Assembly: GCA_002705045.2 (NCBI GenBank)
Contig: PAHT02000076.1
Span: forward strand, 4,675-43,454
DNA from: Paracoccaceae bacterium
GTDB lineage: Bacteria > Pseudomonadota > Alphaproteobacteria > Rhodobacterales > Rhodobacteraceae
Length of the DNA: 38,780 nt
Direction: 5' to 3'
Made by a program: the position numbers and the translations under genes
Shown: in pieces, positions 2,311 to 19,511 of the stretch
Layout of the letters: each line of letters starts with the position of its first letter
Numbering within the stretch: the first letter of the stretch is position 1
The notes under the pieces: generated by a model
What the model saw: only the letters and a program-made list of their open reading frames with translations
Database searches by the model: none
What the model was told of the DNA's origin: nothing

Positions 2311-2337
2311 TAAACGACATTAATCCAAAAAAGTTTA
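2311..2337 (-). promoter_or_regulatory. FliA (sigma-28) type promoter of the lipoprotein gene
   Basis: On the minus strand TAAACTTT, then an 11-base gap, then GTCGTTTA. The -35 is one mismatch from TAAAGTTT with canonical spacing. The predicted start of transcription is about 33 bases before the ATG at 2271. The same GTCGTT -10 recurs upstream of six other genes in this window. Confidence 0.65.
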
Positions 2338-2483
2338 GTAATTATCCAGAAAAGATAGTAACAGGTATTTAAAAATAATTGTCAGAGAAAAGGTTGCCTT
2401 ACTACTGGCATCAGAATTGCTTAGGGAAGAGGCGCATTAAACTGCGTTATCATGAGTAATATCATGTGTAGCAACTTTAACTT

Positions 2484-2511
2484 ACCCTGGGTGATCATCC
2501 CAGGGTCTTTT
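2484..2511. terminator. Hairpin terminator after fliL
   Basis: Inverted repeat ACCCTGGG / CCCAGGGT with a 7-base loop, directly beyond the fliL stop codon. The T-rich tail (TCTTTT) lies on the plus-strand side. It therefore looks better as a plus-strand terminator, possibly of an unannotated small transcript, but may also end the fliL message. Confidence 0.55.
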
Positions 2512-3151
2512 AAGTTATAACGAACCGAATAAATAAAACCTTACTTATCTCAGGTTTTGACCCCAAGCTTTCAAGCTTTTGATTAATAACATCCCTTAGA
2601 TCGTTTAAGAGTTTTTTTTGAAAGTCAGCCGACTGTAATTCCTCTAAGGAATGAGCTCCCATGAAGTATAGTATGTCCGACCGAATAGCGGGTACAAACG
2701 CGTTAAAACTCTCAAAAAACCATTCCGCAGTAACCCCAGACTGAAAACTTGAAACTGCAAGTTCAAATGTCAGATTTTTTTTTGTATCCGGAATATTGAC
2801 GGCGAAAGCCATCGGAAATTGAAAATAATTGTGCGTATCCAAAAACCCTGCTTCGTCTGCATTCTCCGGAACCGCAGCCCCAGCCTCAGTCTGACCGCCC
2901 TCGTCATCATCAGAATTTTCTTGCTGAGAGTAGGACTGTAAAACTTCTTCAAGCTTAGCTTCATGGGCAAGGTCTGATGTCAGTAAAATTTTAGTCAAAA
3001 CAATATAAATGACGAAAATCAAAAGAAATGGACCAATGAAAAAATAAACCAACGGTCCTGGCATTTTTATCTTAAAACGTGGCTTTACTACCTCATCCTC
3101 TGATACTTCTGTATCCTCTTTGCTTTCTGACTGCTCTAATGCTTCCGACAT
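2510..3151 (-). CDS. fliL: Flagellar basal body-associated protein FliL
   Basis: FliL is an inner-membrane protein with a periplasmic domain that surrounds the stator units and supports torque. Here an acidic cytoplasmic tail of about 30 residues is followed by one membrane helix (roughly residues 36-60, PLVYFFIGPFLLIFVIYIVL). After it comes an acidic linker and a C-terminal domain with the family pattern: a beta strand ending in LTFELAVSS, a helix with VPAIRSDILYFMG, and a terminal ISKVLFIRFVIT strand. The length of about 213 residues is slightly above typical FliL because of the acidic linker. Two starts are possible: GTG at 3157 or ATG at 3151. An AGGTGG sits only 2 bases before the ATG, so the choice is unsure. 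A FliA-type promoter lies just upstream. The gene stands alone rather than with fliM/fliN. Confidence 0.85.
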   Translation of the reverse strand: MSEALEQSESKEDTEVSEDEVVKPRFKIKMPGPLVYFFIGPFLLIFVIYIVLTKILLTSDLAHEAKLEEVLQSYSQQENSDDDEGGQTEAGAAVPENADEAGFLDTHNYFQFPMAFAVNIPDTKKNLTFELAVSSFQSGVTAEWFFESFNAFVPAIRSDILYFMGAHSLEELQSADFQKKLLNDLRDVINQKLESLGSKPEISKVLFIRFVIT

Positions 3152-3191
3152 ATCCACCTAAACAATTATTCACATGTCTACTTAATAGTGT

Positions 3192-3217
3192 TAAACGACG
3201 TGTAAAGATTTTTTTTA
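3192..3217 (-). promoter_or_regulatory. FliA-type promoter of fliL
   Basis: Minus-strand TAAA, 14 bases, GTCGTTTA. It is located about 40 bases upstream of the fliL start, back to back with a matching element for the 3342 gene. Confidence 0.6.
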
Positions 3218-3276
3218 AATATAAATATAGAAATGCAATTTGTATATTCTGAATTAATTTAAATTAAACTTTTTAT

Positions 3277-3302
3277 TAAAATATTATTCACACGGTCGTT
3301 CA
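3277..3302 (+). promoter_or_regulatory. FliA-type promoter of the 3342 gene
   Basis: Plus-strand TAAA, 14 bases, GTCGTTCA, ending 39 bases before the ATG at 3342. It differs at one -10 position from the fliL copy. Confidence 0.55.
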
Positions 3303-3341
3303 CTTAAAGACGAGCTTGTAAATATAAGAAAAGGGACGCGA

Positions 3342-3668
3342 ATGAGTATACACCACACCGATCAACTAGACTGGGCCCCTAAGAAGAGTAAGGATATTCA
3401 ATCATTACAGAAGTTTCAAAAAAATATAGCATCATCCCTTCTACAATACACGGAGGACGAAGATGAAAATAAGACAAATTCGAAATTAGTTTCGGCTTTG
3501 CTATTTATGCTTCACATAAGCAGTGAAATTGTAAAGTCGTTTACCTATGGTGACGAAACCGATACTAAAGAGCTGCTAGATGAAGCAATCACCGAGGCAA
3601 ATTTTGCCTATAAAAACAGAGATGGTTTAGATTTAACAGACACTTTAAACAAAGCGAAAATGAATTAA
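3342..3668 (+). CDS. Small soluble protein of unknown function, likely FliA-controlled
   Basis: A 108-residue protein that I do not recognise. It has no signal peptide or membrane segment. It begins with a polar stretch, followed by a mostly helical pattern (SALLFMLHISSEIVKSF) and an acidic, helical C-terminus. The size and all-helical character would suit a flagellar chaperone or small regulator such as a FliS-like protein, but no diagnostic motif supports that. The ATG is preceded by AAGGGA at good spacing and by a FliA-type promoter, which is the only evidence tying it to motility. It is divergent from fliL and convergent with the membrane protein gene ending at 3711. Confidence 0.65.
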   Translation: MSIHHTDQLDWAPKKSKDIQSLQKFQKNIASSLLQYTEDEDENKTNSKLVSALLFMLHISSEIVKSFTYGDETDTKELLDEAITEANFAYKNRDGLDLTDTLNKAKMN

Positions 3669-3681
3669 ATTTATTCATTTT
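3657..3681. terminator. AT-rich hairpin between convergent genes
   Basis: AAAATGAAT / ATTCATTTT, a 9-bp stem with a 7-base loop that overlaps the stop codon of the 3342 gene and ends in T residues. The stem is weak because it is AT-rich, so its function as a terminator is uncertain. Confidence 0.4.
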
Positions 3682-3710
3682 TGTTAAATCACCTTACAAA
3701 GCTAAACAAG

Positions 3711-4427
3711 CTATAACTTAAACTTTATTCTTCCGTTGATAATCCATTCATCGTGAAGGCAAGCCACGGATATAGACTTGTTTAGCTCTTTTCTAGCTTG
3801 AATAGTAACAGTATTGATTATCGTATTGCGATCATTTCTGGCGTCTGTCTCCTTCTTAATCAATGCCTTCGCCCATACTTCTAAATCATAGTCCTCCAAT
3901 AAATCGTTCAAATTTGGGGGCAAGCCGGACTGATCATCAGATTTACTCATATCTGAGTCTATCTTGCTGCTAACAGTTTTTATATCTTCAAAAATTTCTG
4001 AACTACATTCACGAGATAAAAACGTACATATAGCTTTGTACTTTTCAGCAGTTTCAAAGAGATTTTTAAATTTACCATGGGAAACATTTTGTGTCTCATC
4101 GATTGTTCCTTTTGCGTCGTTCACATACATCAACTCCAAATCATCCAACTGCTCTAATAGCCAAGCCTCATGAGGCTTTATTGTTCCATACAAAAGAGTA
4201 CTTAACTCAAATAATTGAGGTGATGTCGGATCATCAAATTTCAACCGCTCAAACATACGTTCGCTCTCTTGTTCATAGAGCTTCTTTTCGTTCTTTTTTT
4301 TTATTTTTTGATCTTCATTGGACCAGACAATCCCAAGACCTATCACCATTGTGAGCAAACCGACATAAGGAGTGAACCAGAGCAACAAAAAGCCAACGAC
4401 AGCCATACTTGATCCTAAAAGAAGCAT
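3711..4427 (-). CDS. Membrane-anchored protein of unknown function
   Basis: About 238 residues. Two adjacent hydrophobic segments at the N-terminus (MLLLGSSMAVVGFLLLWF and VGLLTMVIGLGIVW) form a membrane hairpin. A charged, helical, probably cytoplasmic region of about 190 residues follows, including a KIKKKNEKKLYEQESERMFERL stretch that may be coiled coil. No known domain was recognised. The start at 4427 is preferred because GGTGGAGG lies 4 bases before the ATG; a longer TTG start at 4457 lacks a ribosome site. No FliA or sigma-54 motif was found upstream, so a flagellar role rests only on position. Confidence 0.65.
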   Translation of the reverse strand: MLLLGSSMAVVGFLLLWFTPYVGLLTMVIGLGIVWSNEDQKIKKKNEKKLYEQESERMFERLKFDDPTSPQLFELSTLLYGTIKPHEAWLLEQLDDLELMYVNDAKGTIDETQNVSHGKFKNLFETAEKYKAICTFLSRECSSEIFEDIKTVSSKIDSDMSKSDDQSGLPPNLNDLLEDYDLEVWAKALIKKETDARNDRNTIINTVTIQARKELNKSISVACLHDEWIINGRIKFKL

Positions 4428-4528
4428 CGATCCTCCACCAGTTAAGTCAATACCCAAAAATTAAATAGTGACTTCAATACCTTTTAACTATTTTAACCTA
4501 CTTCAATTACCTAGACTTTAGCAAACCT

Positions 4529-4594
4529 AGTTGACTTTTTTGAAAAGTAGTTTCCAAGCTTATAAACTTTAAAACTACTTTTTTGAAATCAACT
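4529..4594. repeat. Imperfect inverted repeat
   Basis: The outer arms AGTTGA / TCAACT and inner arms AAAAGTAGTTT / AAACTACTTTT are perfect complements, separated by slightly unequal linkers and an 18-base loop. As RNA or DNA it could form a hairpin of at least 17 bp. It may be a terminator-like structure, an operator or the remnant of a small repeat element. Confidence 0.6.
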
Positions 4595-4737
4595 CGGTTT
4601 CAGAAGCAGAATATTTGCTCACAATATTTGACAATATCATAATACAAAATGACGTAGCTGCAAATAGCGAATTGAAAATTACAAGAGCAGACTACCTACG
4701 CCAAAGTCAATCTAACAGTGTCTATAGGATTTTTTTT

Positions 4738-4766
4738 TTGATTTTGTAAAGAAAAAGTATTATATC
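4738..4766 (+). promoter_or_regulatory. Possible sigma-70 promoter of the RRF-like gene
   Basis: TTGATT, 17 bases, TATATC (8 of 12 consensus positions), 41 bases before the ATG at 4808. The call is weak in such AT-rich DNA. Confidence 0.3.
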
Positions 4767-4807
4767 TAACGCTAGCGTGCAAAAGTATATCGGAAAAGAG
4801 AGATATT

Positions 4808-5449
4808 ATGGCAGAGGAACCAGACTCCTACTCACTAGAAGCCGAAGCAAACATGGAAGTGTGCCTGGAAAATCTAATAGAAAATCTAAAAAGTGTTGGC
4901 TCAGCAGATGCATATAAAAACGCACTTTTTGGAATAAAATTGATGGTGGATAAAAAACAGAGACGCTTGTCAGACTTGTCAAGCATTGGCCCAGGACCAA
5001 TTCCACGATCATTAGAATTAATGGTGTTTAGTCGGGAATTAATACCTCAAATCGTCAAAGAAATTAAACTCGCTGGCTTCAGAAATGTTCAAGCAAATGA
5101 GGTTTTACAAAAAGTTGTGGTTGTGGTTCCAAAGCCAAACCTCGAAGAATTGCAGCAAGTTGCAGATGAAGTAACTCGACTTACTAGAAGTACTATTGGT
5201 CAGGTTGCAAAAATTAAAAGTAATTCTGCAATGCGACTGAAAGCTGGGCTGGAAAATGAGTACATTGAACCATTAACAGCAAGTAAAGCAACAAAAAAAC
5301 TTGATGCACTATTTGATAAATTTGCCGAGTTAACTAAGTTGCACACGATAAAAAAGAAAAAGGATCTGCTGGGAAGTCAATTTGAACCAGAAAACAAGGA
5401 AGAAATTGAACTCCTAGAAAAACTGAAAAAGAAAAAGCTAAAAAGCTAA
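4808..5449 (+). CDS. Divergent ribosome recycling factor-like protein
   Basis: A 213-residue soluble protein. Residues about 65-165 follow the order of ribosome recycling factor: a segment like the RRF 'vfdksl..aiekaI..sdLGlnp' strand-helix (MVFSRELIPQIVKEIKLAG), then a hydrophobic strand ending in proline (VVVVVPKPNLEELQQVADEV), then a long helix in the place of the 'RniRrda' helix (IGQVAKIKSNSAMRLK). The invariant arginines of that helix are largely replaced by lysines and other residues. The C-terminus is a lysine-rich helix. Canonical RRF is about 185 residues and essential, so this is more likely a paralog with another role. It starts with ATG after GGAAAAGAGAG. It converges with the flagellin-like gene with only 10 bases between the stops. 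The homology is inferred by eye and needs a profile search. Confidence 0.55.
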   Translation: MAEEPDSYSLEAEANMEVCLENLIENLKSVGSADAYKNALFGIKLMVDKKQRRLSDLSSIGPGPIPRSLELMVFSRELIPQIVKEIKLAGFRNVQANEVLQKVVVVVPKPNLEELQQVADEVTRLTRSTIGQVAKIKSNSAMRLKAGLENEYIEPLTASKATKKLDALFDKFAELTKLHTIKKKKDLLGSQFEPENKEEIELLEKLKKKKLKS

Positions 5450-5459
5450 GGCCCCTTTG

Positions 5460-8400
5460 TCAGGTAGATTTGATCAAGGCATATACATCGTCAGCAACTG
5501 CGTTTCCCGCTCTTGCCAACAAGCTTTGAATTTCATCTGCGATAATCATCTTGGCCGTTTTCTGAGACAAGTTTATAGCAGACGGAACATCCAATGCGTC
5601 TGCCTTGGTAGTATTTAAGCTATCTAAATAGTTTGATGTATCAAACTCACTAAATTCAAAAACCGCTCGTGACCTTGGAATATAATTTTCCTTGTAATCA
5701 GACACACTTTTAATTGCGAGAGCAATTCTTTCAGAAGCATTTTGTATTCTAAGAGTTTCACTTGTGCTAATCGGACTACTTCCTGAGAAGACCCCAAGTG
5801 TTTGTACTGTGGCATTTGATGTTTCCCAAAAACTAGTTCCGTTACTTTGTTCATTTTGCTGCAACAAAGAAAAGTTATCTTTAGAAAGTACGGTCACTTC
5901 GCCGGTTGAGAAAACTTCTTGCCCTGCCCCGCCTGTTAACGAAAATCCAGCTAAAGTTGCCGGAACATCAATGGCTTCAGTTGTACTTGATCCATTGCCA
6001 GTTATCGAAGTTACAGAAACCTGTGGGGTATAACTGGCATTAGATGCAGAAAAATTTAAATTTTCATACGTAACTCTTTCCTTTATTATGTCAAGAACAT
6101 CATCAGATATTGCGGAGACCGCAACGTCATCCACCCTAACTCTTGCACTTGAAATACCGTCACCATCATCGTCATAAGACCCCGCTAAGAATGCAATTTT
6201 ATAATCCCCAGAAGTAGAGACAGTGTGTGTCACGGTCTCCCACCCACTACTACTATTTTCAGTAGTATTTTTAAGCTCTTCAAAGGCATTATTTGCCGTA
6301 TTCACGAGATAAGCTTGGAAATCACCCTTTCCACCCGTAGTATCATCGATGCGCCAGCGAAAGGAGATCTGTTCATTACTATATAATCTAACATCACTCG
6401 CACTTTGTATCCCCATTCCCTTTATTAAATTATAGCCTACTGATGCTCCAACATTAGTTGCCAGCATTTGCGCTAAGTTATTGTTTCCATCGTCGATAGT
6501 CGTTGCAAGGCTTCCAGTGGTCATAGTGGTTTTATCTGTATCAACGTCGTTACTCAGATTAGATACAGTTGCACCAAAAGAACCAGATGTCGTAACATTA
6601 ATATTTGAGTCCAAAGGAGTTGTTGGTGAGTTGATAATTACTTGTGCCCCACTTCCTGTTGCGGTAAACCCCGTAGTACCAGTTCGATTATTTATGGACG
6701 TTCTGATCGCTTCTGCAGTTGCATTGTTATTAGAGTAAGTTATTGTTCCTGATATCAAATTAGTTTCATCAATTGTAATAGCAGAAAGAGTACTTGCCGT
6801 TAGATTTGGTGCTGACATATTTATTGTTCCAGAAGTAGTTAGACTTATAGAACTGTCACTAGGAATAGTGGAAGAGGAAATATTAATTTGTGCGCCAGAG
6901 CCACTAGCTGAATAACCAGTTGAACCAGTTTGATCGTTTATAGCAGTCCGAATAGCGGCAGCGGTTGTATTATTATCGACATAAGCAATTGTTCCAGAGA
7001 TAAGATTTGTGCCATCAACGGTGATCGCACTCAGTGTTCCGTCACTGCTATCGCCTGAATTCACGGACAGAGTACTGGTTGCAGTACCTGAGTCAATAGT
7101 TAAAGTACCATACCGCCCGACTATATTTTCACTTGGAAAAGAGGTGTCACGTTGAGTGGTTAAACCATCGATAGCTGTTGTTCCTGAAATAATTTGAGAA
7201 GACACCTTTGTCCAATTTGAGTCAGTATCAAATGTTCCATTTGTAAAAACTCTCGAATTCGCATTAAAATTTATTTGAAGAGAGTTGCCTCCGACCCCAT
7301 CATTCGTCGCATCAACCGCTCCAATCTGAGCTTGACCTCCTCCAGTTCCAATAAAAATATTTTTATTGGCATCTATTGAGACAGAACCAATGGAGGTGTC
7401 GCCAACGTTGAAAGTCGCTAAATTAATGTTCTCTGAGGTCAGATTTCCGACCATTCCAAAATTTAAACTTCCTCCCGCAAAACCAGCGTCTACATCATTA
7501 TAATCAACGCTCTGCCCCTCCAATAAAAAATCTGTTATCCCATCTCTTCTATCAACTGATACTGATAAACTTGTATCAGAAACAGAATGGACAAATGACG
7601 ATATACCAATATTTCCTCCATTTGGATCAGTTAAAATAATGTCATTATTCGTCGCACCCATTTTTGCAAAAATTCCAGTAACATCCGAATAGCCGTTCAC
7701 GGCAATTGCCAACTCTGAGAGATCATTCTTGTCAGCAATAGAAACACCGCTGATATTAACTGAACCCATACCTTGTTTCTCAGATGCTAACGAAAGAGCA
7801 ACTGTACCCGCATTTGTTAAGTCGTTTAGCCGTAGCGTACTTCTAGCAGATGCAGAAACTCCAATCGCTGTGTTTGCAGAAGCCTCAAGAACATTGATTC
7901 GAGCTGCAAGACTAGACGCTGACTCACCAGCTAATTGGTCAAAAGTGTTGGTTCCATCGGGGCCATTAATCGTAATTGTCTTGCTAGCAGTAATATTAGT
8001 ACCTGTTTTCTCCAAACCTCCTGCTAATGCTAGAGCTGAAAAAGTACGAAATGACGCCATTGTATCATAAACATTTTCAATTGAAATTGATGCGGGATCA
8101 GATTGTCCAGACCACATTGGAAAAACTCTATTTGTGAAGGTACCATCAATTAAATTTTGTTCATTAAGTTGTCTTTTTGATATGATAGCGGTTACCTCAT
8201 CACCAAATGAGCTTATTGCACTTGCTAGCGACACAGAATCAGATACTAGTGCTTGGTTATTATCTTCAGCGGCTTGGGCTTCTGATATCTTTTTACCCAT
8301 TCGCTCCAATACATTCAACACATCCTCATAAGCTGATGACGCAATGTTTAAAGCGTTTAACCCACTTCGCATATTACTTATACCGCTTCGGATCTCATTT

Positions 8401-8582
8401 ATCTCTGCAGTTAATCGATTGACGTACGCCGCCTGAACCGCATCCTCAGCAGAGAGTAATGTAGCTGCTCCCGTAAGCCTTGGACTTGCTTGCTGCCTAT
8501 CCTTATCTCGGTCTGATACATCTTTTTGTACTTTAGCAATGTAACCAGATAAAGGATCAATAATTTTAGTGAGCGAAATCAT
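5460..8582 (-). CDS. Giant flagellin-like surface protein (1040 aa)
   Basis: A secreted filament-type protein with recognisable flagellin ends. Residues about 35-150 match the D0/D1 pattern, including VNRLTAEINEIRSGISNMRS and a late SKRQLNEQNLIDGTF, equivalent to the 'tqFNGqkLLdG' of flagellins. The C-terminal 80 residues are a helix-rich D1/D0-like end. The central region is greatly enlarged. It contains a jelly-roll-like domain opening at about residue 442 (NGTFDTDSNW) and closing near 822 (GWETVT...GDYKIAFLAGSYDDDGDG...VRVDDVAV), with two 82-residue tandem repeats inserted inside it. Ordinary flagellins are 280-500 residues. The start is the ATG at 8582 with GGAG 8 bases upstream; a TTG four codons earlier is rejected. 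A FliA-type promoter and a 24-base A/T tract lie upstream. It might act as an adhesive minor filament protein. Confidence 0.8.
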   Translation of the reverse strand: MISLTKIIDPLSGYIAKVQKDVSDRDKDRQQASPRLTGAATLLSAEDAVQAAYVNRLTAEINEIRSGISNMRSGLNALNIASSAYEDVLNVLERMGKKISEAQAAEDNNQALVSDSVSLASAISSFGDEVTAIISKRQLNEQNLIDGTFTNRVFPMWSGQSDPASISIENVYDTMASFRTFSALALAGGLEKTGTNITASKTITINGPDGTNTFDQLAGESASSLAARINVLEASANTAIGVSASARSTLRLNDLTNAGTVALSLASEKQGMGSVNISGVSIADKNDLSELAIAVNGYSDVTGIFAKMGATNNDIILTDPNGGNIGISSFVHSVSDTSLSVSVDRRDGITDFLLEGQSVDYNDVDAGFAGGSLNFGMVGNLTSENINLATFNVGDTSIGSVSIDANKNIFIGTGGGQAQIGAVDATNDGVGGNSLQINFNANSRVFTNGTFDTDSNWTKVSSQIISGTTAIDGLTTQRDTSFPSENIVGRYGTLTIDSGTATSTLSVNSGDSSDGTLSAITVDGTNLISGTIAYVDNNTTAAAIRTAINDQTGSTGYSASGSGAQINISSSTIPSDSSISLTTSGTINMSAPNLTASTLSAITIDETNLISGTITYSNNNATAEAIRTSINNRTGTTGFTATGSGAQVIINSPTTPLDSNINVTTSGSFGATVSNLSNDVDTDKTTMTTGSLATTIDDGNNNLAQMLATNVGASVGYNLIKGMGIQSASDVRLYSNEQISFRWRIDDTTGGKGDFQAYLVNTANNAFEELKNTTENSSSGWETVTHTVSTSGDYKIAFLAGSYDDDGDGISSARVRVDDVAVSAISDDVLDIIKERVTYENLNFSASNASYTPQVSVTSITGNGSSTTEAIDVPATLAGFSLTGGAGQEVFSTGEVTVLSKDNFSLLQQNEQSNGTSFWETSNATVQTLGVFSGSSPISTSETLRIQNASERIALAIKSVSDYKENYIPRSRAVFEFSEFDTSNYLDSLNTTKADALDVPSAINLSQKTAKMIIADEIQSLLARAGNAVADDVYALIKST
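6543..6788 (-). repeat. 82-residue tandem repeat, second copy
   Basis: Encodes residues about 599-680 of the giant flagellin-like protein, beginning LSAITIDETNLISGTITY. It aligns without gaps to the preceding copy, with about half of positions identical, including SGTI, AIRT, SGSGAQ-like and TTSG motifs. Confidence 0.85.
6789..7034 (-). repeat. 82-residue tandem repeat, first copy
   Basis: Encodes residues about 517-598, beginning LSAITVDGTNLISGTIAY. It is followed directly by the second copy with a period of exactly 246 bases, indicating an in-frame tandem duplication. Confidence 0.85.
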
Positions 8583-8631
8583 TTTTTTCTCCAATGTGTA
8601 GCGACAAAATTTTAAAATTTTTTTACTTTTA

Positions 8632-8657
8632 CAAACGACCGAAAAAAAAATATTTTA
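8632..8657 (-). promoter_or_regulatory. FliA-type promoter of the giant flagellin-like gene
   Basis: Minus-strand TAAA, 14 bases including nine T, GTCGTTTG. The predicted transcription start is about 43 bases before the ATG at 8582. Confidence 0.65.
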
Positions 8658-8669
8658 GTAAAAATTAGA

Positions 8670-8693
8670 TTTTTTTTTTTTTTTTTTTTTTTT
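8670..8693. repeat. 24-base poly(T)/poly(A) tract
   Basis: An uninterrupted run of 24 T on the plus strand. It lies 13-36 bases upstream of the -35 of the minus-strand FliA-type promoter, which is the UP-element position, and 34 bases before the divergent FliA-type promoter. A tract of this length is prone to slipped-strand length change. Confidence 0.95.
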
Positions 8694-8716
8694 AGTTAAA
8701 TTTAGTATCGAAAACA

Positions 8717-8726
8717 GTATCGATAC
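8717..8726. repeat. Palindrome GTATCGATAC with a half-site repeat
   Basis: A 10-bp perfect palindrome, preceded 12 bases earlier (8705) by a direct copy of GTATCGA. It sits directly before the -35 of the plus-strand FliA-type promoter, so it could be a regulator-binding site. Confidence 0.45.
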
Positions 8727-8727
8727 C

Positions 8728-8753
8728 TAAAACTTTTTTTTGCAAGTCGTTAA
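8728..8753 (+). promoter_or_regulatory. FliA-type promoter facing the 8761 mini-gene
   Basis: Plus-strand TAAA, 14 bases, GTCGTTAA. The predicted transcription start (about 8759-8761) falls at or just before the ATG at 8761. Confidence 0.6.
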
Positions 8754-8760
8754 AGAAAGT

Positions 8761-8946
8761 ATGCTTATAGATACAACATTAAGAAGACGTTTAAATTTGC
8801 AAACAAATCAACCTCTACCAAGCTCTGATGAGGAAGTCTTGGAAGATACACTGATAGCCAATCCGCTGTCGTCAGGCGGTAAATTTGACAATAGATTTAG
8901 CGTTAGCGCGCAAGAATGGCTCAGCACATGGCGAATTACAGAGTGA
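8761..8946 (+). CDS. 61-residue hypothetical protein, possibly leaderless
   Basis: A short polar protein (MLIDTTLRRRLNLQTNQPL..., ending SAQEWLSTWRITE) with no signal or membrane segment and no recognised domain. A FliA-type promoter ends 7 bases before the ATG, so the message would have almost no leader. A TTG at 8740 would lie inside the promoter and is unlikely. It converges with the 62-residue gene. It is divergent from the giant flagellin-like gene, so it could act in handling that protein, but this is only a guess from position. Confidence 0.5.
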   Translation: MLIDTTLRRRLNLQTNQPLPSSDEEVLEDTLIANPLSSGGKFDNRFSVSAQEWLSTWRITE

Positions 8947-8971
8947 CATTAAAATTTATTTAATCAAATAA

Positions 8972-9160
8972 TTAGTGTTCATCTTTTCCTGGAAGATAAG
9001 CTTTTCCTTGAATCGACTTGGCTCCAAGTTTGTCGGTAAGTTCTTCATTCTTAACGATAACCGCATTTAAATGCTGATCAACTATCCTCTCTGCATCCTC
9101 TAACGTCGAAGCTTCAATTTCGGCTATTCCATCTATTATCCAATGAACTTTTACTTTCAT
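8972..9160 (-). CDS. 62-residue hypothetical protein
   Basis: A small soluble protein with the pattern KVHWIIDGIAEIEASTLEDAERIVDQHL, a compact strand-helix unit, and a polar C-terminus. I do not recognise the family. The ATG follows a very strong GGAGGG site 4 bases upstream, so the gene is probably real. It lies 19 bases after the Sel1-repeat gene and is the last gene of a three-gene operon that begins at 10188 under a FliA-type promoter. Confidence 0.65.
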   Translation of the reverse strand: MKVKVHWIIDGIAEIEASTLEDAERIVDQHLNAVIVKNEELTDKLGAKSIQGKAYLPGKDEH

Positions 9161-9179
9161 CTAACCCTCCATTGTTTAC

Positions 9180-9797
9180 TTACTTCATCGTTTCAGAAAT
9201 CTTAGTAAAAACTTCAAGTGCTTTACTCTGCAGATTTATGATATCTTTTCCTTCTAACTCTTTTTGAACTTTGTCACGTCGTGCTATAGCATTTTCTAAT
9301 TGAAATGCCGACGCGACGACGAACCACAGATATGCCTCTTTGTATTGAGGCTCTTCGGGTACTTGAAGAAAATAATCTCCCATTTGGGAGATTGCAACAG
9401 TATTCCCTGACTCGGCTCTGGTTTTAATGTAATTTTTGACTTCGTTTCTGATAATTCGTAGAGTTGGGTCCGGCACTATATCCTTTATCTCATCCACTAG
9501 TTTATTTGCAGCCTCAATTTTACCTAAAAGAGCAAGCCAACCCCATTTCAATGCATCTTTATAACTTTGGGGCCGCCCGCGTCCTGATTTTAGTAATAAA
9601 GCTATGTTATACTGTGCATCGGCTTCATTATTCTCCGCTAAAACTTCAAAAATTTCAATTGCTTCTTTGTAACGACGATCTTTTACCGCTTTCGTCGCCT
9701 CCTCAAACATTATATCACTTTCAGAAAAATCGCCAGCTTGAGAATACTTTGTCATTAGACAAAGCATTATCGTTACAGCAAGAAATAATCTTATCAA
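9180..9797 (-). CDS. Periplasmic Sel1/TPR-repeat protein
   Basis: 205 residues with a cleavable signal peptide (about residues 1-21, ending YSQAG). Sel1-type helical repeats follow: the AVKDRRYKEAIEIFEVLAEN unit, then EADAQYNIALLLKSGRG, and later SGNTVAISQMGDYFLQ with AYLWFVVASAF. Sel1 repeats are protein-interaction scaffolds. In Vibrio the stator-recruiting T-ring protein MotX is a periplasmic Sel1 protein, so a role at the basal body periphery is possible but not shown. Translation starts at a TTG immediately after the stop of the upstream gene, within a GGCGGGGCGGTGAG sequence, implying translational coupling. The gene is part of the FliA-type operon from 10188. Confidence 0.75.
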   Translation of the reverse strand: MIRLFLAVTIMLCLMTKYSQAGDFSESDIMFEEATKAVKDRRYKEAIEIFEVLAENNEADAQYNIALLLKSGRGRPQSYKDALKWGWLALLGKIEAANKLVDEIKDIVPDPTLRIIRNEVKNYIKTRAESGNTVAISQMGDYFLQVPEEPQYKEAYLWFVVASAFQLENAIARRDKVQKELEGKDIINLQSKALEVFTKISETMK

Positions 9798-9798
9798 C

Positions 9799-10188
9799 TC
9801 ACCGCCCCGCCATCATCACCAACTGTAAATACAAAACTCTTAACCTAAACTTCGAATTTTCTTTACGTTCATAAACTACTATTCTTGGTCTGTCTGAGTC
9901 AGCTTTTTGAAATTCTATTGACATGGTACCTGGAAGAAATACTCCACCTTTTTCGAGTGTCGCTTGTGGATCTTTCGAAAAACTTCGATGAAAAATCGGA
10001 TCAATCCACACACGCGCAAGCACTTTACCTAATATATCAGGCAAAAGACTACGTACATCGTCCCTGGTTTCAAAATGGATATTGCCAGAAACTAATTCAA
10101 AGTTTTTTGTCTTCGAGTCTTTCTCTTTTAAGGCTAAAGGCTGCCGTTTTGGAACTGGTACTAAAGCATTCTTTGAATTACTTGACAT
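9799..10188 (-). CDS. Protein with nitrile-hydratase-alpha/NHLP-leader-like domain
   Basis: 129 residues. The first 45 are polar. Residues about 50-105 read LARVWIDPIFHRSFSKDP, then a QATLEKGG-x-FLPG turn and an IEFQKADSDRPRIVVYE strand. This is the layout of the nitrile hydratase alpha-like leader (NHLP/TOMM propeptide) family: 'A.aW.DpaFr..LladP.aaL.e.G..lP.gv...v..nt....hlvlP'. In that family the domain occurs either in nitrile hydratase subunits or as leader peptides of modified peptides. No catalytic CxxC(S)C metal motif is present. The basic C-terminal tail replaces any core peptide, so neither enzyme nor bacteriocin seems likely. It is the first gene of a FliA-type operon and is followed after 1 base by the Sel1 protein. 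The domain call is from memory. Confidence 0.6.
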   Translation of the reverse strand: MSSNSKNALVPVPKRQPLALKEKDSKTKNFELVSGNIHFETRDDVRSLLPDILGKVLARVWIDPIFHRSFSKDPQATLEKGGVFLPGTMSIEFQKADSDRPRIVVYERKENSKFRLRVLYLQLVMMAGR

Positions 10189-10281
10189 TATAAACTCACT
10201 AAAATTTATGATTTTACAGCTACTTTTGATCGATAATATCCTCTAATCTATATTTCTAAATTTATTTGTAAAGTGGTTATA

Positions 10282-10308
10282 GAAACGACAGAACTTCAAA
10301 AAATTTTA
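10282..10308 (-). promoter_or_regulatory. FliA-type promoter of the 10188 operon
   Basis: Minus-strand TAAA, 15 bases, GTCGTTTC. It would drive the leader-like, Sel1 and 62-residue genes with a leader of about 87 bases. Confidence 0.55.
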
Positions 10309-10322
10309 CTAAAAACAGAGTT

Positions 10323-10338: not shown

Positions 10339-10367
10339 TTAAAATGATTTAAAATCTGGAGAAAATC

Positions 10368-11150: not shown

Positions 11151-11152
11151 AT

Positions 11153-11563: not shown

Positions 11564-11573
11564 CAGAATATCC

Positions 11574-12281
11574 CTAAAACTCTTCTTTCGTAATTAGATC
11601 TCTCAGTTTTCCAATAGCCGCTTTCTTTATTTGTGAAACCCTACCAGTTGTAACATTAAGTACCTCAGCAATTTCGTATATGTTAAGTTCTTCAACATAA
11701 TAAAGCTGAATAACCATTAACTCTTTTTCGGGGAGCTTGCCTAAAACGGTTCTGAGTGTTTTCTTTAATTGGGCAGTTTCAATTTTTTTTTCAGCGCCAT
11801 CTTCATTTAAGACAAAAAACATCGAATATTCGTCATAGACAGCATCCAAGGACTGATGAACATTCGCTGCGAACGCATGCTGCCATTCACTATATTCAGC
11901 GTCACTCAAACCCGCTGCGGTAGCAACTTCATTCGGAAGTGGTTCCCGACCTAGGGATTGTCTAAGGCTCACTTCCGTAGCTTTGACTTTCTGTTGCATC
12001 TGGATTGTCGTTCGACACAGGTTAGAATTTTTTCTAAAAAAATCTATAATCGCTCCTCTAATCCTAATTGAAGCGTAACTTGCAAAAGGAATACCTTCTT
12101 TTTGTACAAAGTTGTTCGCCGCAATTACAAGCCCAGTATAGCCAATTTGAATCAGATCTTCGATTTCTAATGCGCCTCGCACCCGCCCATGTAAATGCCA
12201 AGCGATCTTCTTAACCAAACCAAGGTTGTTCTTTATTAAATCCTCTGTATTTAATTCAGTTGCCTGATAGTTTTGCGACAT
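11574..12281 (-). CDS. fliA: Flagellar sigma factor FliA (sigma-28)
   Basis: Sigma factor for late flagellar genes, held inactive by FlgM. The sequence shows region 2 (LVKKIAWHLHGRVRGALEIE followed by DLIQIGYTGL), the FASYASIRIRGAIIDFFRK segment that reads the -10, region 3 (SLGREPLPNEVATAAGLSD), and a region 4 helix-turn-helix (IYEIAEVLNVTTGRVSQIKK). The length of about 235 residues is normal. The start at 12281 is preferred because AAGGA lies 9 bases upstream; a TTG at 12302 overlapping the flhG stop codon and an ATG at 12290 are alternatives. The seven TAAA-N14/15-GTCGTT motifs in the window are its probable targets, including the promoter of its own anti-sigma factor gene flgM. Confidence 0.97.
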   Translation of the reverse strand: MSQNYQATELNTEDLIKNNLGLVKKIAWHLHGRVRGALEIEDLIQIGYTGLVIAANNFVQKEGIPFASYASIRIRGAIIDFFRKNSNLCRTTIQMQQKVKATEVSLRQSLGREPLPNEVATAAGLSDAEYSEWQHAFAANVHQSLDAVYDEYSMFFVLNEDGAEKKIETAQLKKTLRTVLGKLPEKELMVIQLYYVEELNIYEIAEVLNVTTGRVSQIKKAAIGKLRDLITKEEF

Positions 12282-12298
12282 AGATAACATTCCTTGAC

Positions 12299-13084
12299 TC
12301 AAATTGTACTCTTATTAAAAAAAGTAATACCAGATGCTTTATTATTTGGCGAGGAAAGAAGTTCTTTAGACATCGATTTAAATAATAAACTCTCTCTCCC
12401 CTTGTTATCACTAATCACTAGTGGTTTTCGTTTCACTATTGACGATCGCAAACTTCGAGAATGAGGTAAGTATCCGATGAAACGCAAATTTACATCGAGA
12501 AAATTTAAGGCTGTTTTATTAAATTTATTAAATGTCTCTTTAGCTTGTTTTTCATTATCTGCCATATTAACCACTATTGAAAACTCCTTAACTCCTCCTT
12601 CAACGTACGCAGCCTTCACCATGGTATACGCATCCATAAAACTCGTAGGCTCACCTACTAAAACTATCAGTACTTTATCTGAGGCGTTAACAAATGAAAG
12701 TGAACTGTCCGAGGCTCCAGCAGGAACATCTACAAAAAAGACGTCACACTTTTCAGCTAAAGGGTCAAAACTCCTAATTAAATTAAATCTTGTCGATCGA
12801 TCTAAATTTAATAATTCTAATAAACCATTACCTCCTGATATTAATTGGAGGCCCAGTGGTCCCTTGGTAATACTATCAGTTAGGTCACTTTTTCCTGTAA
12901 TTGCTTCTCGCACGGTTTTGGCAGGATTATAACCCATAAGTAAATGAGCGTTTGCCAAGCCAAAATCAGCATCAAGAAAAGTGACTCGAGAGCCGAGTGA
13001 TGCCATCGTGAGCGCTAAGTTAACAGCGATACTTGTCTTACCTACACCACCTTTACCACTAGCTATTGAAATAGAAATCGGCAT
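12299..13084 (-). CDS. flhG: Flagellar number regulator FlhG (MinD-like ATPase)
   Basis: A ParA/MinD-family ATPase that limits flagellar number, usually by opposing FlhF. The deviant Walker A motif GKGGVGKTS is at residues 10-18, the switch I-region aspartates are in TFLDADFGLANAHLLMG, and Walker B/switch II is FFVDVPAGASDSS, where the usual D-x-GAG is DVPAG. The length of 261 residues is typical. The C-terminal 20 residues do not form a clear membrane-targeting amphipathic helix. It lies between flhF and fliA; the TTG/TGA overlap with fliA suggests coupling. The combination with flhF points to a controlled number of polar flagella. Confidence 0.93.
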   Translation of the reverse strand: MPISISIASGKGGVGKTSIAVNLALTMASLGSRVTFLDADFGLANAHLLMGYNPAKTVREAITGKSDLTDSITKGPLGLQLISGGNGLLELLNLDRSTRFNLIRSFDPLAEKCDVFFVDVPAGASDSSLSFVNASDKVLIVLVGEPTSFMDAYTMVKAAYVEGGVKEFSIVVNMADNEKQAKETFNKFNKTALNFLDVNLRFIGYLPHSRSLRSSIVKRKPLVISDNKGRESLLFKSMSKELLSSPNNKASGITFFNKSTI

Positions 13085-13120
13085 GCTCTTTCTTTCTTTT
13101 TATTTAAGTATAACATCATT

Positions 13121-14245
13121 TTAGCAATTTTCTAATAGATACTGAGTAAGTATTTCTTTGTTACAAATGGATACTCCACCTGAAATTAATTTTGAACCAG
13201 TCAGGTAATGTATTTTCATAGAGTTCAAGAAAAATTCTGACATTTCAATTGAAGTAAGATCACATTCATCTAACTTGGTAAGTGTCAATTCCGAATGCAG
13301 ATCTTTGTAAAGATTTGCTTGTCCACGAATAAACGAGCTGCTGGAGCCACCAGGAATTGCTATTATTGACGATATTTCACTTGCAGATAGAAATTCAATT
13401 GCATTTAAAATTGAATTTACTCCATCGTTAGGCTCAAGCGATACATCGATAATTATTTTACCTTTAATTGAACAGAGAGTTTCCATTAAGTTATCTGGAT
13501 TTAACCACAAAACAGGTTTATTCAGGAGACGGCTATGCGACCGAAGAAAGTCATCTTTAGTGTCTGTTTTATAACCAAGCTTGGCTAAACTTATCTGGCC
13601 TGAATAATTTTCTTGTTCGCTAACGCTCATTTTTGCGGTTAACGTACTTTTTCCAACACCAGAAAGCCCACTGATAAATGTGACTCTTTTAAGCTTATTT
13701 TCAACATCTGGAACAGTTAACTTTTTTGCCAATGCGTTCATAAATGCGGTTCTGCCTCTTTCAAAATTTAGTCCTGAAAAAGACGGACTCAATGCTTTAA
13801 TTACGGAAGTTGCAAAGCCTGCCTTTTCAAATTTTATAAACGATGACTCGCCAAGCTCAACACCTAAACCATTAGATCCAGTAATATACATTCCTTTAAT
13901 TTCGTTTGTTAAGCTCTCAATTTTTTCAGTTAGCAATGACAAATTAGACTCAGTGGCTTTTGATCCAATTTCATGATAATCTGGAACCGAACCAAGTGAC
14001 CGATGCGTTGGTTTGGGTAAAGGAAACTCCGCAACATTTCCAAGTTCCTTTTTAATCAAGTTTGAGAATTTTTTCTTGGGTTTTTCTGAATATTTCTTCA
14101 ATTCTATAGGATCATTTGTAGCTTCAATTTCAACACCTCCCTCCTTTGAAGTGGTTGAGAGTATAAAAGCGTCCGCTCCCAACTTTTTTGAAACTTCTTC
14201 CATTGCCGTTGATGAGTCTCTTGCCGTAATCTTTATCGTAGTCAT
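13121..14245 (-). CDS. flhF: Divergent FlhF, SRP-type GTPase for flagellar placement
   Basis: FlhF marks the cell pole for flagellar assembly. The N-terminal domain (MTTIKITARDSSTAMEEVSKKLG) is typical. The P-loop GLSGVGKST (about residues 193-201) and the G4 motif TKLDE (about 322-326) are present. The family motifs between them are not recognisable: the DTYRIGA guanine-binding motif is replaced by a KLGYKTDTKDDF segment, and the G3 DTAGR motif by IIIDVSLEPNDG. The total of 374 residues is short for FlhF (usually 420-500). GTP hydrolysis may therefore be weak or lost while nucleotide or partner binding remains. The ATG follows AAGGAT. The gene sits between flhA and flhG, as in polar flagellates, supporting the assignment. 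Confidence 0.88.
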   Translation of the reverse strand: MTTIKITARDSSTAMEEVSKKLGADAFILSTTSKEGGVEIEATNDPIELKKYSEKPKKKFSNLIKKELGNVAEFPLPKPTHRSLGSVPDYHEIGSKATESNLSLLTEKIESLTNEIKGMYITGSNGLGVELGESSFIKFEKAGFATSVIKALSPSFSGLNFERGRTAFMNALAKKLTVPDVENKLKRVTFISGLSGVGKSTLTAKMSVSEQENYSGQISLAKLGYKTDTKDDFLRSHSRLLNKPVLWLNPDNLMETLCSIKGKIIIDVSLEPNDGVNSILNAIEFLSASEISSIIAIPGGSSSSFIRGQANLYKDLHSELTLTKLDECDLTSIEMSEFFLNSMKIHYLTGSKLISGGVSICNKEILTQYLLENC

Positions 14246-14272
14246 ATCCTTTTATCCTTCAATTTCTCAAGG

Positions 14273-16366: not shown

Positions 16367-16506
16367 AATACTATTTTTTCCTAATCGATACCATCGTCAA
16401 AAAAATGACTCTTAACCAAAATTTAATTTTAGCTATATTAATCAGATAGTTAATCAATATTTAGACCTCATGTTTAAAATTCAAACTTTTTAGCTATTGA
16501 TATTAA

Positions 16507-16522
16507 GGCAAAACTAGTGCCA
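16507..16522 (-). promoter_or_regulatory. Sigma-54 promoter of the flhA operon
   Basis: Minus-strand TGGCACTAGTTTTGCC, matching TGGCAC-N5-TTGC, with the invariant GG and GC ten bases apart. It is divergent from the flgP promoter in the same 250-bp gap. Confidence 0.8.
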
Positions 16523-16558
16523 AACCCAAAAATGATCTGAAAGTTTTATATTTTCATG

Positions 16559-16574
16559 TGGCATACATTATGCA
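16559..16574 (+). promoter_or_regulatory. Sigma-54 promoter of the flgP operon
   Basis: TGGCATACATTATGCA. The GG and GC positions are intact, with one mismatch (A for the first T of TTGC). It lies 40 bases before the flgP ATG. Confidence 0.75.
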
Positions 16575-16613
16575 TCCTTCCCTGCAAAGTTAGACTTCAC
16601 ATTGGAGAAAAAA

Positions 16614-17162
16614 ATGGTGCCATTTGGAAAAAGAGTATTAACCACTGCATTAATGTCGATGTTATTAGCGGGGTGTCAAAGCAATTTGTTCAGGGCAAAC
16701 TTGTCGAGTCCAAGCGATACGATTTCAGCTGTGGAGCCGCAAATTGAAATATTAAGTACAAGTAATCAAAACGCAACAATGTCTGATGTAGCGGCAATTA
16801 ACGAAACGCTTGACGCGAGTGTCATGGAAATTCCAACAATAAACGCAGTGGGGTACGCAGTCGTTTCATCGCAACCTGGTCGATCCGAAAACCAAAAGCG
16901 CCTAATGGCAATCAGGTCTGCGAGAATGGCGGCAATGCGGGAGCTCGCAGAGCAAATACATGGTTTAAAAGTTGAAGGTAACACCACCGTCATAGATTTG
17001 ATGGTCCAAAATGATACTTTTAGAGGTGTTGTTACTGGAACAATACGAGGAGCAAGAACTGTTCGGATAAACCCCACCGGTTCCGATACTTATGAAGTAG
17101 TTCTGGAAATTGACAATGAAATGATCTCTGGCCTGATAAAATCTGCTAGAAAATTTTCCTAA
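16614..17162 (+). CDS. flgP: Flagellar H-ring lipoprotein FlgP
   Basis: Outer-membrane lipoprotein of the LPP20 family that helps build the H ring around the L/P rings of sheathed or polar flagella. The lipobox is LLAGC (about residue 21). The family pattern follows: VGYAVVSSQPGRSENQKRLM, then AIRSARMAAMRELAEQIHGL, IDLMVQND, and GTIRGARTVRINPTGSDTYE. The length of 182 residues is as expected. The ATG at 16614 is chosen because GGAG sits 7 bases upstream; a TTG at 16602 overlaps that site. A sigma-54 element precedes the gene, and flgT follows after 33 bases. A classic flgO is not seen in the window. Confidence 0.92.
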   Translation: MVPFGKRVLTTALMSMLLAGCQSNLFRANLSSPSDTISAVEPQIEILSTSNQNATMSDVAAINETLDASVMEIPTINAVGYAVVSSQPGRSENQKRLMAIRSARMAAMRELAEQIHGLKVEGNTTVIDLMVQNDTFRGVVTGTIRGARTVRINPTGSDTYEVVLEIDNEMISGLIKSARKFS

Positions 17163-17195
17163 TTAATCCTAGTTGAGAGAGTCAAGAAATATAAA

Positions 17196-18335
17196 ATGAA
17201 TGCAGAATTAAAAAGTTATATTTATTATTTTTGTATGTCCGCTCTCATGCTGTTCTCTAGTTCTGTCAATGCAGAACCAAGAATTAAGTTTGTAGAAACT
17301 ACTGGACGTGCAGTCATTACCGATGACGCGTCGATGACAGAAGCCAGACGAACCGCTCTTGAAGATGCAATATTTTTAGCTGCGATCCACGGAGGGGCTA
17401 AAATAGACGGTTTTAGCTCGATTGATAGAGAAACAAATCTCACTGATCATTTTACACTGAGACCTGCGGGACAATTATTAGATTATGCAATCCTTGATGA
17501 AAGTATAGAGGATGAACATTACAAAACAACAATTCGTGCAGCAGTGGGCGAAATAAATGAAACAGAATGCTCCAGTCGAAAAGTAGCGCAGATAACAAAA
17601 TTTGGTGCTGAATTCAATTTTTCTGCAAAAGTTCCAGCTTGGTTAAGACAAATTGCTAGTGAAGTTGACGTAACTCTCGCGGAATTGTTAAGAATGCATA
17701 ATTCGGCAATATTGACCCAAGTCGTACCAGCAAAATTAAATATAAATAAATTGGCATCAACAAACGACTCATTTGATTACGAATCTCTCACTCGTGGAAG
17801 AATACGCGTCAAGAGTGGCGATTTTGCATTAGTGCCCTCAATCTCTATGCAAATCATCAAATCAAAAAAAAATATAGAAACGGAACTCTTTTTAACAGTT
17901 TCAATTTATTCGAAACTTTTTCGAGGAGAAAACTATAGTTTAGCTGAAAGTGCAAACTATGATCTTACAATAAAATTGCGAAGTGAGACCCCCTGGCGAT
18001 CCTTTGACATCTTAGGAAAAAAAACTCGGGACCAGATCAAACTATCAATAAAAAGTGGACTTGATGAGCACATCAATGAGTTAATGAAAAAATTAAAATG
18101 TATCCCATTAACTGGAAAAATTAAACTCCAAGAAAATAAATTGGTGGTAGACTTAGGTCAGAGCCATGGTGTTTCCATAAATAGTTTGGCTGTTTCCTCT
18201 GGAACTAATACGGCATATTCTATTCTCCATGTTACTGAAATATTTCCTAATCAAGCAGTGATTGAACCGTTAAATAAATCACTTGAACTAAGCTCACTCA
18301 TTGGAAAAACAATTAATTTTATGGGGTCAAACTAA
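17196..18335 (+). CDS. flgT: Flagellar H-ring periplasmic protein FlgT
   Basis: A periplasmic H-ring component that in Vibrio is needed to recruit the MotX/MotY T ring and stabilise stators. It has a signal peptide (about residues 1-27, ending SVNAE). The N-terminal domain has the pattern ETTGRAVITDDASMTEARRTALEDAIFLAA, shortened here to its key parts, typical of FlgT. The middle domain has alternating strands, and the C-terminal part is a small beta domain (GKIKLQENKLVVDLGQSHGV). The length of 379 residues matches the family. The stop codon overlaps the next start in TAATG, implying coupling with the LysM protein. It is part of the sigma-54 operon starting at flgP. Confidence 0.85.
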   Translation: MNAELKSYIYYFCMSALMLFSSSVNAEPRIKFVETTGRAVITDDASMTEARRTALEDAIFLAAIHGGAKIDGFSSIDRETNLTDHFTLRPAGQLLDYAILDESIEDEHYKTTIRAAVGEINETECSSRKVAQITKFGAEFNFSAKVPAWLRQIASEVDVTLAELLRMHNSAILTQVVPAKLNINKLASTNDSFDYESLTRGRIRVKSGDFALVPSISMQIIKSKKNIETELFLTVSIYSKLFRGENYSLAESANYDLTIKLRSETPWRSFDILGKKTRDQIKLSIKSGLDEHINELMKKLKCIPLTGKIKLQENKLVVDLGQSHGVSINSLAVSSGTNTAYSILHVTEIFPNQAVIEPLNKSLELSSLIGKTINFMGSN

Positions 18336-18781
18336 TGAAATTAAGAAATAGCTTGCTGGCATTCATTTATCTTTTATTCAATCTCTTTTCCACAAACTTT
18401 AGCTACGCTGAACCACTCATAGTCCTGGAGTTTAGCAGCCAAAGCCAGTTTTCAGAAGGAGATGGAAACAACCTATTTTCTGTAGATCCAGACCATTCAG
18501 AGGAATATATTGTAAAAACAGGCGATAGTTTAAACTCAATTTTAAAACAGTTTTATAAAGGGAGTGGTCTTGACTGGCGCTTCGTTCAGTTAGCAATTGT
18601 TATTGCGAACCCGAAAGCTTTCGCAAAAAATAATCCAAATTTTTTGTTTTCAGATAAAACTTTATATTTACCCGGAAGAGCTGATATCGCAAAACTGCTC
18701 GTGGGTAAAAAAATACGCAACTCAAGTCACCAGGAAGATAATCGATCTTTTGGTCAAAATATCTACTTTTTTGGAGGTTAA
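18335..18781 (+). CDS. Periplasmic LysM-like (FimV N-domain-like) protein
   Basis: 148 residues with a signal peptide (about 1-25, ending FSYAE). Residues about 52-112 form a LysM-type module: EYIVKTGDSLNSILKQFY, then AIVIANPKAFAKNNPN and TLYLPG. The 'NP.AF..nN.n.L..g..L.lP' pattern is that of the FimV/TspA N-terminal peptidoglycan-binding domain. It should bind the cell wall near the basal body. The location between flgT and flgA, with 1-base overlap at the start and 2 bases between its stop and the flgA start, suggests a dedicated part of the H-ring/P-ring assembly. I do not know a standard gene name for it. Confidence 0.75.
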   Translation: MKLRNSLLAFIYLLFNLFSTNFSYAEPLIVLEFSSQSQFSEGDGNNLFSVDPDHSEEYIVKTGDSLNSILKQFYKGSGLDWRFVQLAIVIANPKAFAKNNPNFLFSDKTLYLPGRADIAKLLVGKKIRNSSHQEDNRSFGQNIYFFGG

Positions 18782-18783
18782 AG

Positions 18784-19497
18784 TTGCGATCCCTTTTATA
18801 CATTCTACCAATAATTTATGTCACATTTCCTATGACGACATCCATGGCAAATATGCTAACAGGAGAGATGATTCGTGGCCAAATAGTAGAAACATTGCAA
18901 AGTAAAAATCTTTCCGCCCACCCAGCAATCGATAGAGCGCGGAGATTCCCAGATTGCTCTAAACCTATTTCTATTAAAAGCATTTTTGGGTCCTGGAAAA
19001 CTGTACAAATAAGTTGCCCTACAAGTAATTGGAAAATCGCTGTCCGAACAAATATTAATAAAAGCAGCCCGTTTATACGAAATATGGATTTAAAAAGTCA
19101 AAATAAATCCCAGCATTTAATTACTTTAAACACAAGTCTTGATAGGGGAGATATTATTAAAGAAACTCACTTAGCACGAATACCTCAAACAAAAAATTTT
19201 GGTGGCGGTGTATTTAATGAAAAAACCCAACTAATTGGGCGAACTTTAAAGCAAGCTCTCTCAGTGGGAACTATTGTAAAAGCGCGCCATTTAAATCCCG
19301 ACTGGATAATCCTGAAAGATCAGGTAGTGGATATCGAGCATCAGGTTGGCAACATTACAATTAATGCACAAGGGATAGCCCAAGAGCCTGGGCAAATTGG
19401 GCAACGAATATTGGTAAAGAACTTTAATTCTGGAAAAAAAGTGTTATGCTGGGTAGAGAATGATAAAAAAGTAACTACAAATGCTAAAGTTTATTAA
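18784..19497 (+). CDS. flgA: P-ring assembly chaperone FlgA
   Basis: Periplasmic chaperone for polymerisation of the FlgI P ring. It has a signal peptide (about 1-22), an N-terminal domain with paired cysteines (FPDCSKPISI and VQISCPTSNWKIAV), and a C-terminal SAF domain with RGDIIKETHLARIP, LIGRTLKQALSVGTIVKARH, and GNITINAQGIAQEPGQIGQR. The length of 237 residues is standard. The start is a TTG at 18784, supported by GGAGG 6 bases upstream and the two-base gap from the previous stop. The flgA end overlaps the FliA-type promoter of flgM. Confidence 0.95.
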   Translation: MRSLLYILPIIYVTFPMTTSMANMLTGEMIRGQIVETLQSKNLSAHPAIDRARRFPDCSKPISIKSIFGSWKTVQISCPTSNWKIAVRTNINKSSPFIRNMDLKSQNKSQHLITLNTSLDRGDIIKETHLARIPQTKNFGGGVFNEKTQLIGRTLKQALSVGTIVKARHLNPDWIILKDQVVDIEHQVGNITINAQGIAQEPGQIGQRILVKNFNSGKKVLCWVENDKKVTTNAKVY

Positions 19498-19511
19498 GTT
19501 TGCGTCGTTTA
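19485..19511 (+). promoter_or_regulatory. FliA-type promoter of flgM
   Basis: TAAAGTTT, 11 bases, GTCGTTTA. The -35 is a perfect match to the enteric FliA consensus. The element overlaps the end of flgA and ends 23 bases before the flgM ATG. It anchors the interpretation of the other six GTCGTT elements, since flgM is a classic FliA target. Confidence 0.8.

Follow-up and report, generated by a model that had tools for sequence, protein, structure and literature searches.

Putative sigma-28 promoters with a GTCGTT -10 element in an alphaproteobacterial flagellar locus

We analysed a 38,780-nt stretch of a Paracoccaceae bacterium genome (hereafter the window). It is a flagellar locus that encodes FlhA, FlhF, FlhG, FliA, FlgA, FlgM, FlgB-FlgL-type genes, the FlgH/FlgI rings and an FlgT-like gene. 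Seven elements of the form TAAA-N14/15-GTCGTT lie in the window, and we are confident that they serve as promoters for RNA polymerase with the FliA (sigma-28) of this locus, in what would be a GTCGTT dialect of the fla1-type FliA clade. FliA and its partner FlgM are encoded within the same locus as the seven sites. Judged from the relatives sampled, the dialect is very probably used by a wide clade of marine and freshwater alphaproteobacteria. What the sequences show directly is the motif, where it stands, its retention upstream of orthologs and its association with FliA region 2.4.

The seven elements and their distribution in the genome

A pattern search of the window returned seven exact matches to TAAA-N14/15-GTCGTT and no others, all at the positions and on the strands that the original prediction for this DNA had given (Table 1). 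The spacer from TAAA to GTCGTT is 14 bases at four sites and 15 at three. Dinucleotide shuffles of the window give chance expectations of 0.16 and 0.18 for the individual spacings, 0.34 in total against seven found, and the observed counts were reached by no shuffle. As had been proposed, every site lies 5' of a start codon on the correct strand, the distance from the -10 hexamer being shortest at the mini-gene (9 nt) and longest at the NHLP-like gene (about 95 nt). TAAA is present at the -35 of 7/7 sites, and the flgM site does carry the full TAAAGTTT. The preferred -10 had been given as GTCGTTWA; the hexamer is found at all seven sites, but the next two bases are TA, TA, CA, TG, AA, TC and TA. 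Since only four of the seven continue as GTCGTTWA, the conserved part is the hexamer, and the trailing WA is poorly conserved.

The enteric sigma-28 consensus is TAAAGTTT-N11-GCCGATAA (PMC2859248). Its CGA motif is highly conserved in E. coli, where mutating it abolishes activity (PMC2859248). At all window sites this essential CGA is replaced by CGT, and we therefore call the element a variant sigma-28 promoter.

Across the host genome (2.24 Mb, 90 contigs), sites were classed as intergenic or coding by reference to open reading frames 100 codons or more in length. GTCGTT sites are intergenic in 17 of 30 cases, compared with 0/30 for the reversed pattern, 1/30 for the canonical TAAM-N-GCCGWT and 0/6 for TAAM-N-GTCGTA (Fisher test, 6e-7 versus reversed and 8e-6 versus canonical GCCGWT). 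An equal abundance in coding DNA, which the original prediction had named as evidence against itself, was thus looked for and not seen. A plain genome count shows no GTCGTT excess (31 sites versus 40 with the pattern reversed). The reason is that the reversed control includes TTGCTG, a word frequent in coding DNA; this count was misleading as a test and was set aside for the intergenic/coding classification.

Intergenic GTCGTT sites outside the window precede three Flagellin_N genes, one FliS gene and one lipoprotein gene. Contrary to what had been supposed, the regulon is therefore not local: the motif also stands before flagellin genes and fliS in other parts of the genome, and the dialect extends over a clade. 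As driven genes, flgM, fliL, the flagellin-like gene, the three flagellins and fliS are assigned by position only. Intergenic sites at G000 C8:10678, C83:28051, C32:31268 and C78:6386 have no recognised flagellar gene downstream, and are possible further late genes or non-coding RNAs.

Conservation of the motif in relatives

The nearest FliA proteins come from SAR116 and Rhodobacteraceae genomes, and most sampled members of the host's family are without a close FliA. We found flgM in 62 relative loci, nearly all with TAA(A/C)-N15-GTCGT(T/A) immediately 5' of it, in a position that overlaps the flgA end. A gap of 15 from TAAA to the hexamer predominates, and the exceptions to the hexamer are GCCGTT, GACGTT and, in Rhodobacter, TCCGTW. 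A matrix was built on flgM promoters from other species, 43 distinct sequences in all, with the window and its congener left out. The pattern used to collect them partly fixes its T, A, A, G, C and G, while three -10 positions are free, namely 2, 6 and, with a choice of T or A, 5; at these, position 2 is T in 37/43, position 5 is T in 43/43 and position 6 is A or T in 43/43. When the window is scored with this matrix, the seven claimed sites are the top seven (17.8-20.6), and the next score is 13.8. Simulated windows hold on average 0.09 sites at 17.8 or above.

Upstream regions of orthologs were scored with the same matrix, a strong site being one of at least 13 and a laxer cut being at least 11. 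Homologs of the lipoprotein gene have the motif in 8/19 cases at the strong cut and 18/19 at the laxer one, and those of the NHLP-like gene in 9/68 and 28/68, respectively. For fliL it is found in 10/16 homologs and for the 108-aa gene in 5/8. Together, the lipoprotein, FliL, 108-aa and NHLP orthologs have a strong site in 32 of 111 upstream regions, versus 0/876 for other genes of the locus; those retaining the motif belong to other Rhodobacteraceae and SAR116 genomes. The 62-aa gene has no motif of its own in any of 51 homologs with upstream sequence. It forms the end of a predicted late flagellar operon of the NHLP-like, Sel1 (weak MotX similarity) and 62-aa genes (8972-10188) that adjoins fliA in more than 50 alphaproteobacterial loci. 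In about 1.3 Mb of relatives' flagellar DNA (window included), strong sites concentrate 5' of flgM (44), fliL (11), the lipoprotein gene (9), the NHLP gene (6), the 108-aa gene (5) and the mini-gene.

These results support the original reading of the elements as FliA-type promoters with a GTCGTT -10, through the flgM-trained matrix, the intergenic enrichment and the motif upstream of orthologs. Among the genes it had named as late flagellar, comparison supports the lipoprotein gene, the 108-aa gene at 3342, the mini-gene and the NHLP-like operon; the giant flagellin-like gene is placed there by its motif only. By the same comparison, fliL also belongs to the putative late regulon, adding to the genes named earlier.

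The mini-gene calls for separate description. Its family has members at 8761-8946 and in loci L085, L086, L087, L096, L102, L105, L106, L116, L119, L120, L128 and L131. The small protein has no Pfam or NCBIfam match. A DNA search for the mini-gene stretch in three relatives found nothing, whereas a protein-level search found homologs. Wherever a homolog has a sigma-28 site of its own, there is an in-frame ATG exactly 9 nt past the -10 hexamer; a few have an extra in-frame ATG nearer to it. The nine bases in between are unconserved and without a ribosome-binding site. In contrast, the ATG of flgM is mostly 20-25 nt away and has a Shine-Dalgarno-like sequence in 47/47. The mapped start of E. coli aer lies 6 bp after the -10 octamer (PMC2859248). 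Given this and the 9-nt spacing, the mini-gene transcript is predicted to start at the ATG or 1-2 bases before it, and to be leaderless across homologs with their own promoter. In 11 other loci the gene is without a site of its own, and in 10 of these it comes straight after fliL, which is a predicted target of sigma-28 as well.

The -10 core and FliA region 2.4

FliA of the window has sigma regions 2, 3 and 4 by Pfam, and its best PDB matches are FliA structures; it scores 189.2 bits against the NCBIfam FliA/WhiG curated cut-off of 189.6. In its region 2.4, SNLCRTT replaces the gamma/betaproteobacterial DWxPRSV, a signature that it thus lacks. The positions of E. coli R74, D81 and R91 are kept, residues to which Koo et al. 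in 2009 are said to have assigned a role in -10 contact. In the literature searched, a body that Koo 2009 and a sigma-28 structure paper lie outside, no mention of a GTCGTT -10 for sigma-28 turned up.

The flgM promoters of gamma- and betaproteobacteria have C or T at -10 position 2, and A at position 5 in 25 of 27, the other two having C and T. In the alphaproteobacterial sets, that is, the fla1-type set and the five examined members of family f13, position 5 is T. FliA proteins paired with CGA have DWxPRSV or a close form, and those paired with CGT have an SNLCRTT-like helix, or ATLTRGA in a related family, with the gammaproteobacterium G210 as exception. On these sequences, what sets the promoters of this clade apart from sigma-28 promoters elsewhere is the base at position 5 (CGA to CGT), and not the C to T change at position 2. 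Two other candidates were discarded. GT at positions 1-2 is not lineage-specific, since gammaproteobacterial flgM promoters also have GTCGATAA. The residue after FliA R91 (RTT vs RNT/RKT) was dropped as setting T or C at position 2, since RTT also occurs with GCCGTT (L130, L149) and with GACGTT (L096, L105). In L133, L148, L150, L151 and L153, the flgM -10 is of the Rhodobacter type without the first G (TCCGTW) and the FliA helix is SSLCRATI. This TCCGTW form is a further drift of the same dialect.

Could the elements be read by another sigma factor, or by none? The alphaproteobacterial general stress sigma factor EcfG, for instance, has the consensus GGAAC-N16/17-CGTT, and the core CGTT of our elements is identical to its -10; were EcfG to read them, their flagellar neighbours would simply reflect the flagellar locus. 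However, the GGAAC -35 is absent: TAAA stands at 7/7 sites and TAA(A/C) in the relatives' flgM promoters. Moreover, the sites precede flgM, flagellin genes, fliS and fliL, and the locus has a fliA gene of its own, so that we regard a role of EcfG as very improbable. That some of the seven are chance matches finds a footing in the 13 of 30 genome sites that lie within coding sequence, presumably non-functional, and in the giant flagellin-like gene, for which no relative with an upstream region was found in the loci compared, so that its promoter stands on the motif itself. About five intergenic sites are also without a recognised flagellar gene downstream. All of these weigh against the FliA reading. 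Nevertheless, with seven sites found against 0.34 expected, all correctly placed and oriented, and six of the seven target families recovered independently in relatives, chance is hardly credible as an explanation.

A more serious alternative holds that these are ordinary enteric-type sigma-28 promoters, that the common GTCGTT reflects drift in the base composition of a genome rich in AT, and that FliA specificity is unchanged. Sigma-28 does tolerate some variation, and G210 pairs a GCCGTT flgM promoter with an ordinary DWVPRSV FliA, while its congener with the same helix has GCCGAT. However, CGT also occurs in relatives with a G+C-rich flgM region (G031, Rhodovulum) and in family f13. Position 5 is T throughout the 43 matrix promoters even though A was allowed there, against the near-constant A of the gamma- and betaproteobacterial set, and the effect of CGA mutation in E. 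coli also speaks against it. We consider drift unlikely. Several observations nonetheless count against a change of FliA specificity as well. Two changes are required to account for the CGT label on a tree of FliA, one of them being the single gammaproteobacterial exception G210; with about one evolutionary split, the link between region 2.4 and the -10 is a correlation and no proof of cause. Some clade members with an SNLCRTT FliA have GCCGTT or GACGTT, so position 2 is loose, and Rhodobacter has TCCGTW instead.

On balance, we give somewhat better than even chances to the following. A clade of alphaproteobacterial FliA proteins would have re-specified the core -10 from CGA to CGT via replacement of DWxPRSV, making the dialect orthogonal to enteric sigma-28, and the mRNA of a small protein not recognised before would be leaderless, with its start codon held at the point where sigma-28 transcription begins in different genera.

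The predicted late gene set and known systems

Binding of FliA, transcription, control by FlgM, and region 2.4 as the cause of the altered preference are what we infer from these data, and they suggest the following mechanism. Region 4 of FliA would recognise TAA(A/C) at the -35, and the altered region 2.4 would recognise GTCGT(T/A) at the -10. One of these promoters would supply FlgM, which would keep FliA bound until hook completion and its own export. This would allow expression of the late set: flgM, fliL, the lipoprotein gene, the 108-aa gene, the NHLP-like/MotX-like/62-aa operon, the small protein and the giant flagellin-like gene, along with fliS and three flagellin genes that lie outside the window. 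The GTCGTT dialect would be common to the entire fla1-type FliA clade of the alphaproteobacteria, the lineage-specific change being CGA to CGT in the core -10, with loss of DWxPRSV in region 2.4.

Table 1. Predicted sigma-28 promoters and associated genes in the window (scores are from the flgM-trained matrix)
Feature	Position	Strand	Description
Predicted promoter, lipoprotein gene	2311..2337	-	TAAACTTTTTTGGATTAATGTCGTTTA; score 17.9
Lipoprotein gene	1855..2271	-	138 aa, weak DUF4156
Predicted promoter, fliL	3192..3217	-	TAAAAAAAATCTTTACACGTCGTTTA; score 17.8
fliL	2510..3157	-	PF03748
Predicted promoter, 108-aa gene	3277..3302	+	TAAAATATTATTCACACGGTCGTTCA; score 20.1
108-aa gene	3342..3668	+	no family match, conserved in a few relatives
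Predicted promoter, giant flagellin-like gene	8632..8657	-	TAAAATATTTTTTTTTCGGTCGTTTG; score 20.1
Giant flagellin-like gene	5460..8594	-	Flagellin_N, 1040 aa, likely start ATG at 8582
Predicted promoter, mini-gene	8728..8753	+	TAAAACTTTTTTTTGCAAGTCGTTAA; predicted leaderless
Mini-gene	8761..8946	+	61-aa small protein of conserved family, C-terminal STxxWLQTWR-type motif
Predicted promoter, NHLP-like/Sel1/62-aa operon	10282..10308	-	TAAAATTTTTTGAAGTTCTGTCGTTTC; top score 20.6
NHLP-leader-like protein	9799..10188	-	129 aa, TIGR03793 below cut-off
Sel1-type exported protein	9180..9797	-	weak MotX similarity
62-aa gene	8972..9160	-	third in NHLP-like operon
Predicted promoter, flgM	19485..19511	+	TAAAGTTTATTAAGTTTGCGTCGTTTA; overlaps flgA end
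flgM	19535..19834	+	anti-sigma-28 factor, PF04316
fliA	11574..12302	-	sigma-28; region 2.4 DFFRKNSNLCRTTIQMQQ, E. coli counterpart DELRSRDWVPRSVRRNAR

Elsewhere in the locus, the protein at 4808-5449 has a weak ribosome recycling factor domain match (PF01765, 32 bits). A search against Rfam gave no match. The hook protein FlgE (1259 aa, 23412-27191) and the hook-associated protein FlgK (1645 aa, 31001-35938) are unusually large, next to a flagellin-like protein of 1040 aa.

Few alternative sigma factors are as widespread as sigma-28, whose -10 is taken to be all but universal. If our reading is correct, a large clade that reads another core base would explain why late flagellar genes are missed by enteric matrices; in this genome, 1 of 30 canonical GCCGWT sites is intergenic. 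The altered base sits where enteric promoters do not tolerate change, and the system allows the region 2.4 residues that determine sigma-28 specificity to be tested directly. It would also place several genes of unknown function (those for the lipoprotein, the 108-aa protein, the small protein and the NHLP-like/MotX-like operon) in the late flagellar programme.

In the passages of a review used here, the Fla1 system of Rhodobacter sphaeroides (FliA/FlgM, FleQ/FleT, FlgP, FlgT) is held to have been acquired from a gammaproteobacterium (PMC7277832), and the same passages do not describe a -10 dialect. As far as those passages describe Fla1, the window resembles it in having a gamma-type polar flagellar gene set in an alphaproteobacterium, a FliA presumably checked by FlgM, and FlgT and FlgP-like genes (PMC7277832). 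It differs in that its genome keeps GTCGTT, whereas the examined Rhodobacter flgM promoters have TCCGTW with a SSLCRATI FliA. With enteric sigma-28 the window elements share the TAAA -35, the TAAA-N15-hexamer spacing, the GNCG start of the -10 and a location upstream of flgM and flagellin genes. They depart from it in the CGT core, in GC often being GT, in weak -35 positions 5-8 and -10 positions 7-8, and in a spacer one base shorter at four of seven sites. Finally, GT at -10 positions 1-2 is shared with the sampled gammaproteobacterial sigma-28 promoters that have GTCGATAA/T, although those promoters keep A at position 5 and a DWxPRSV-type FliA.

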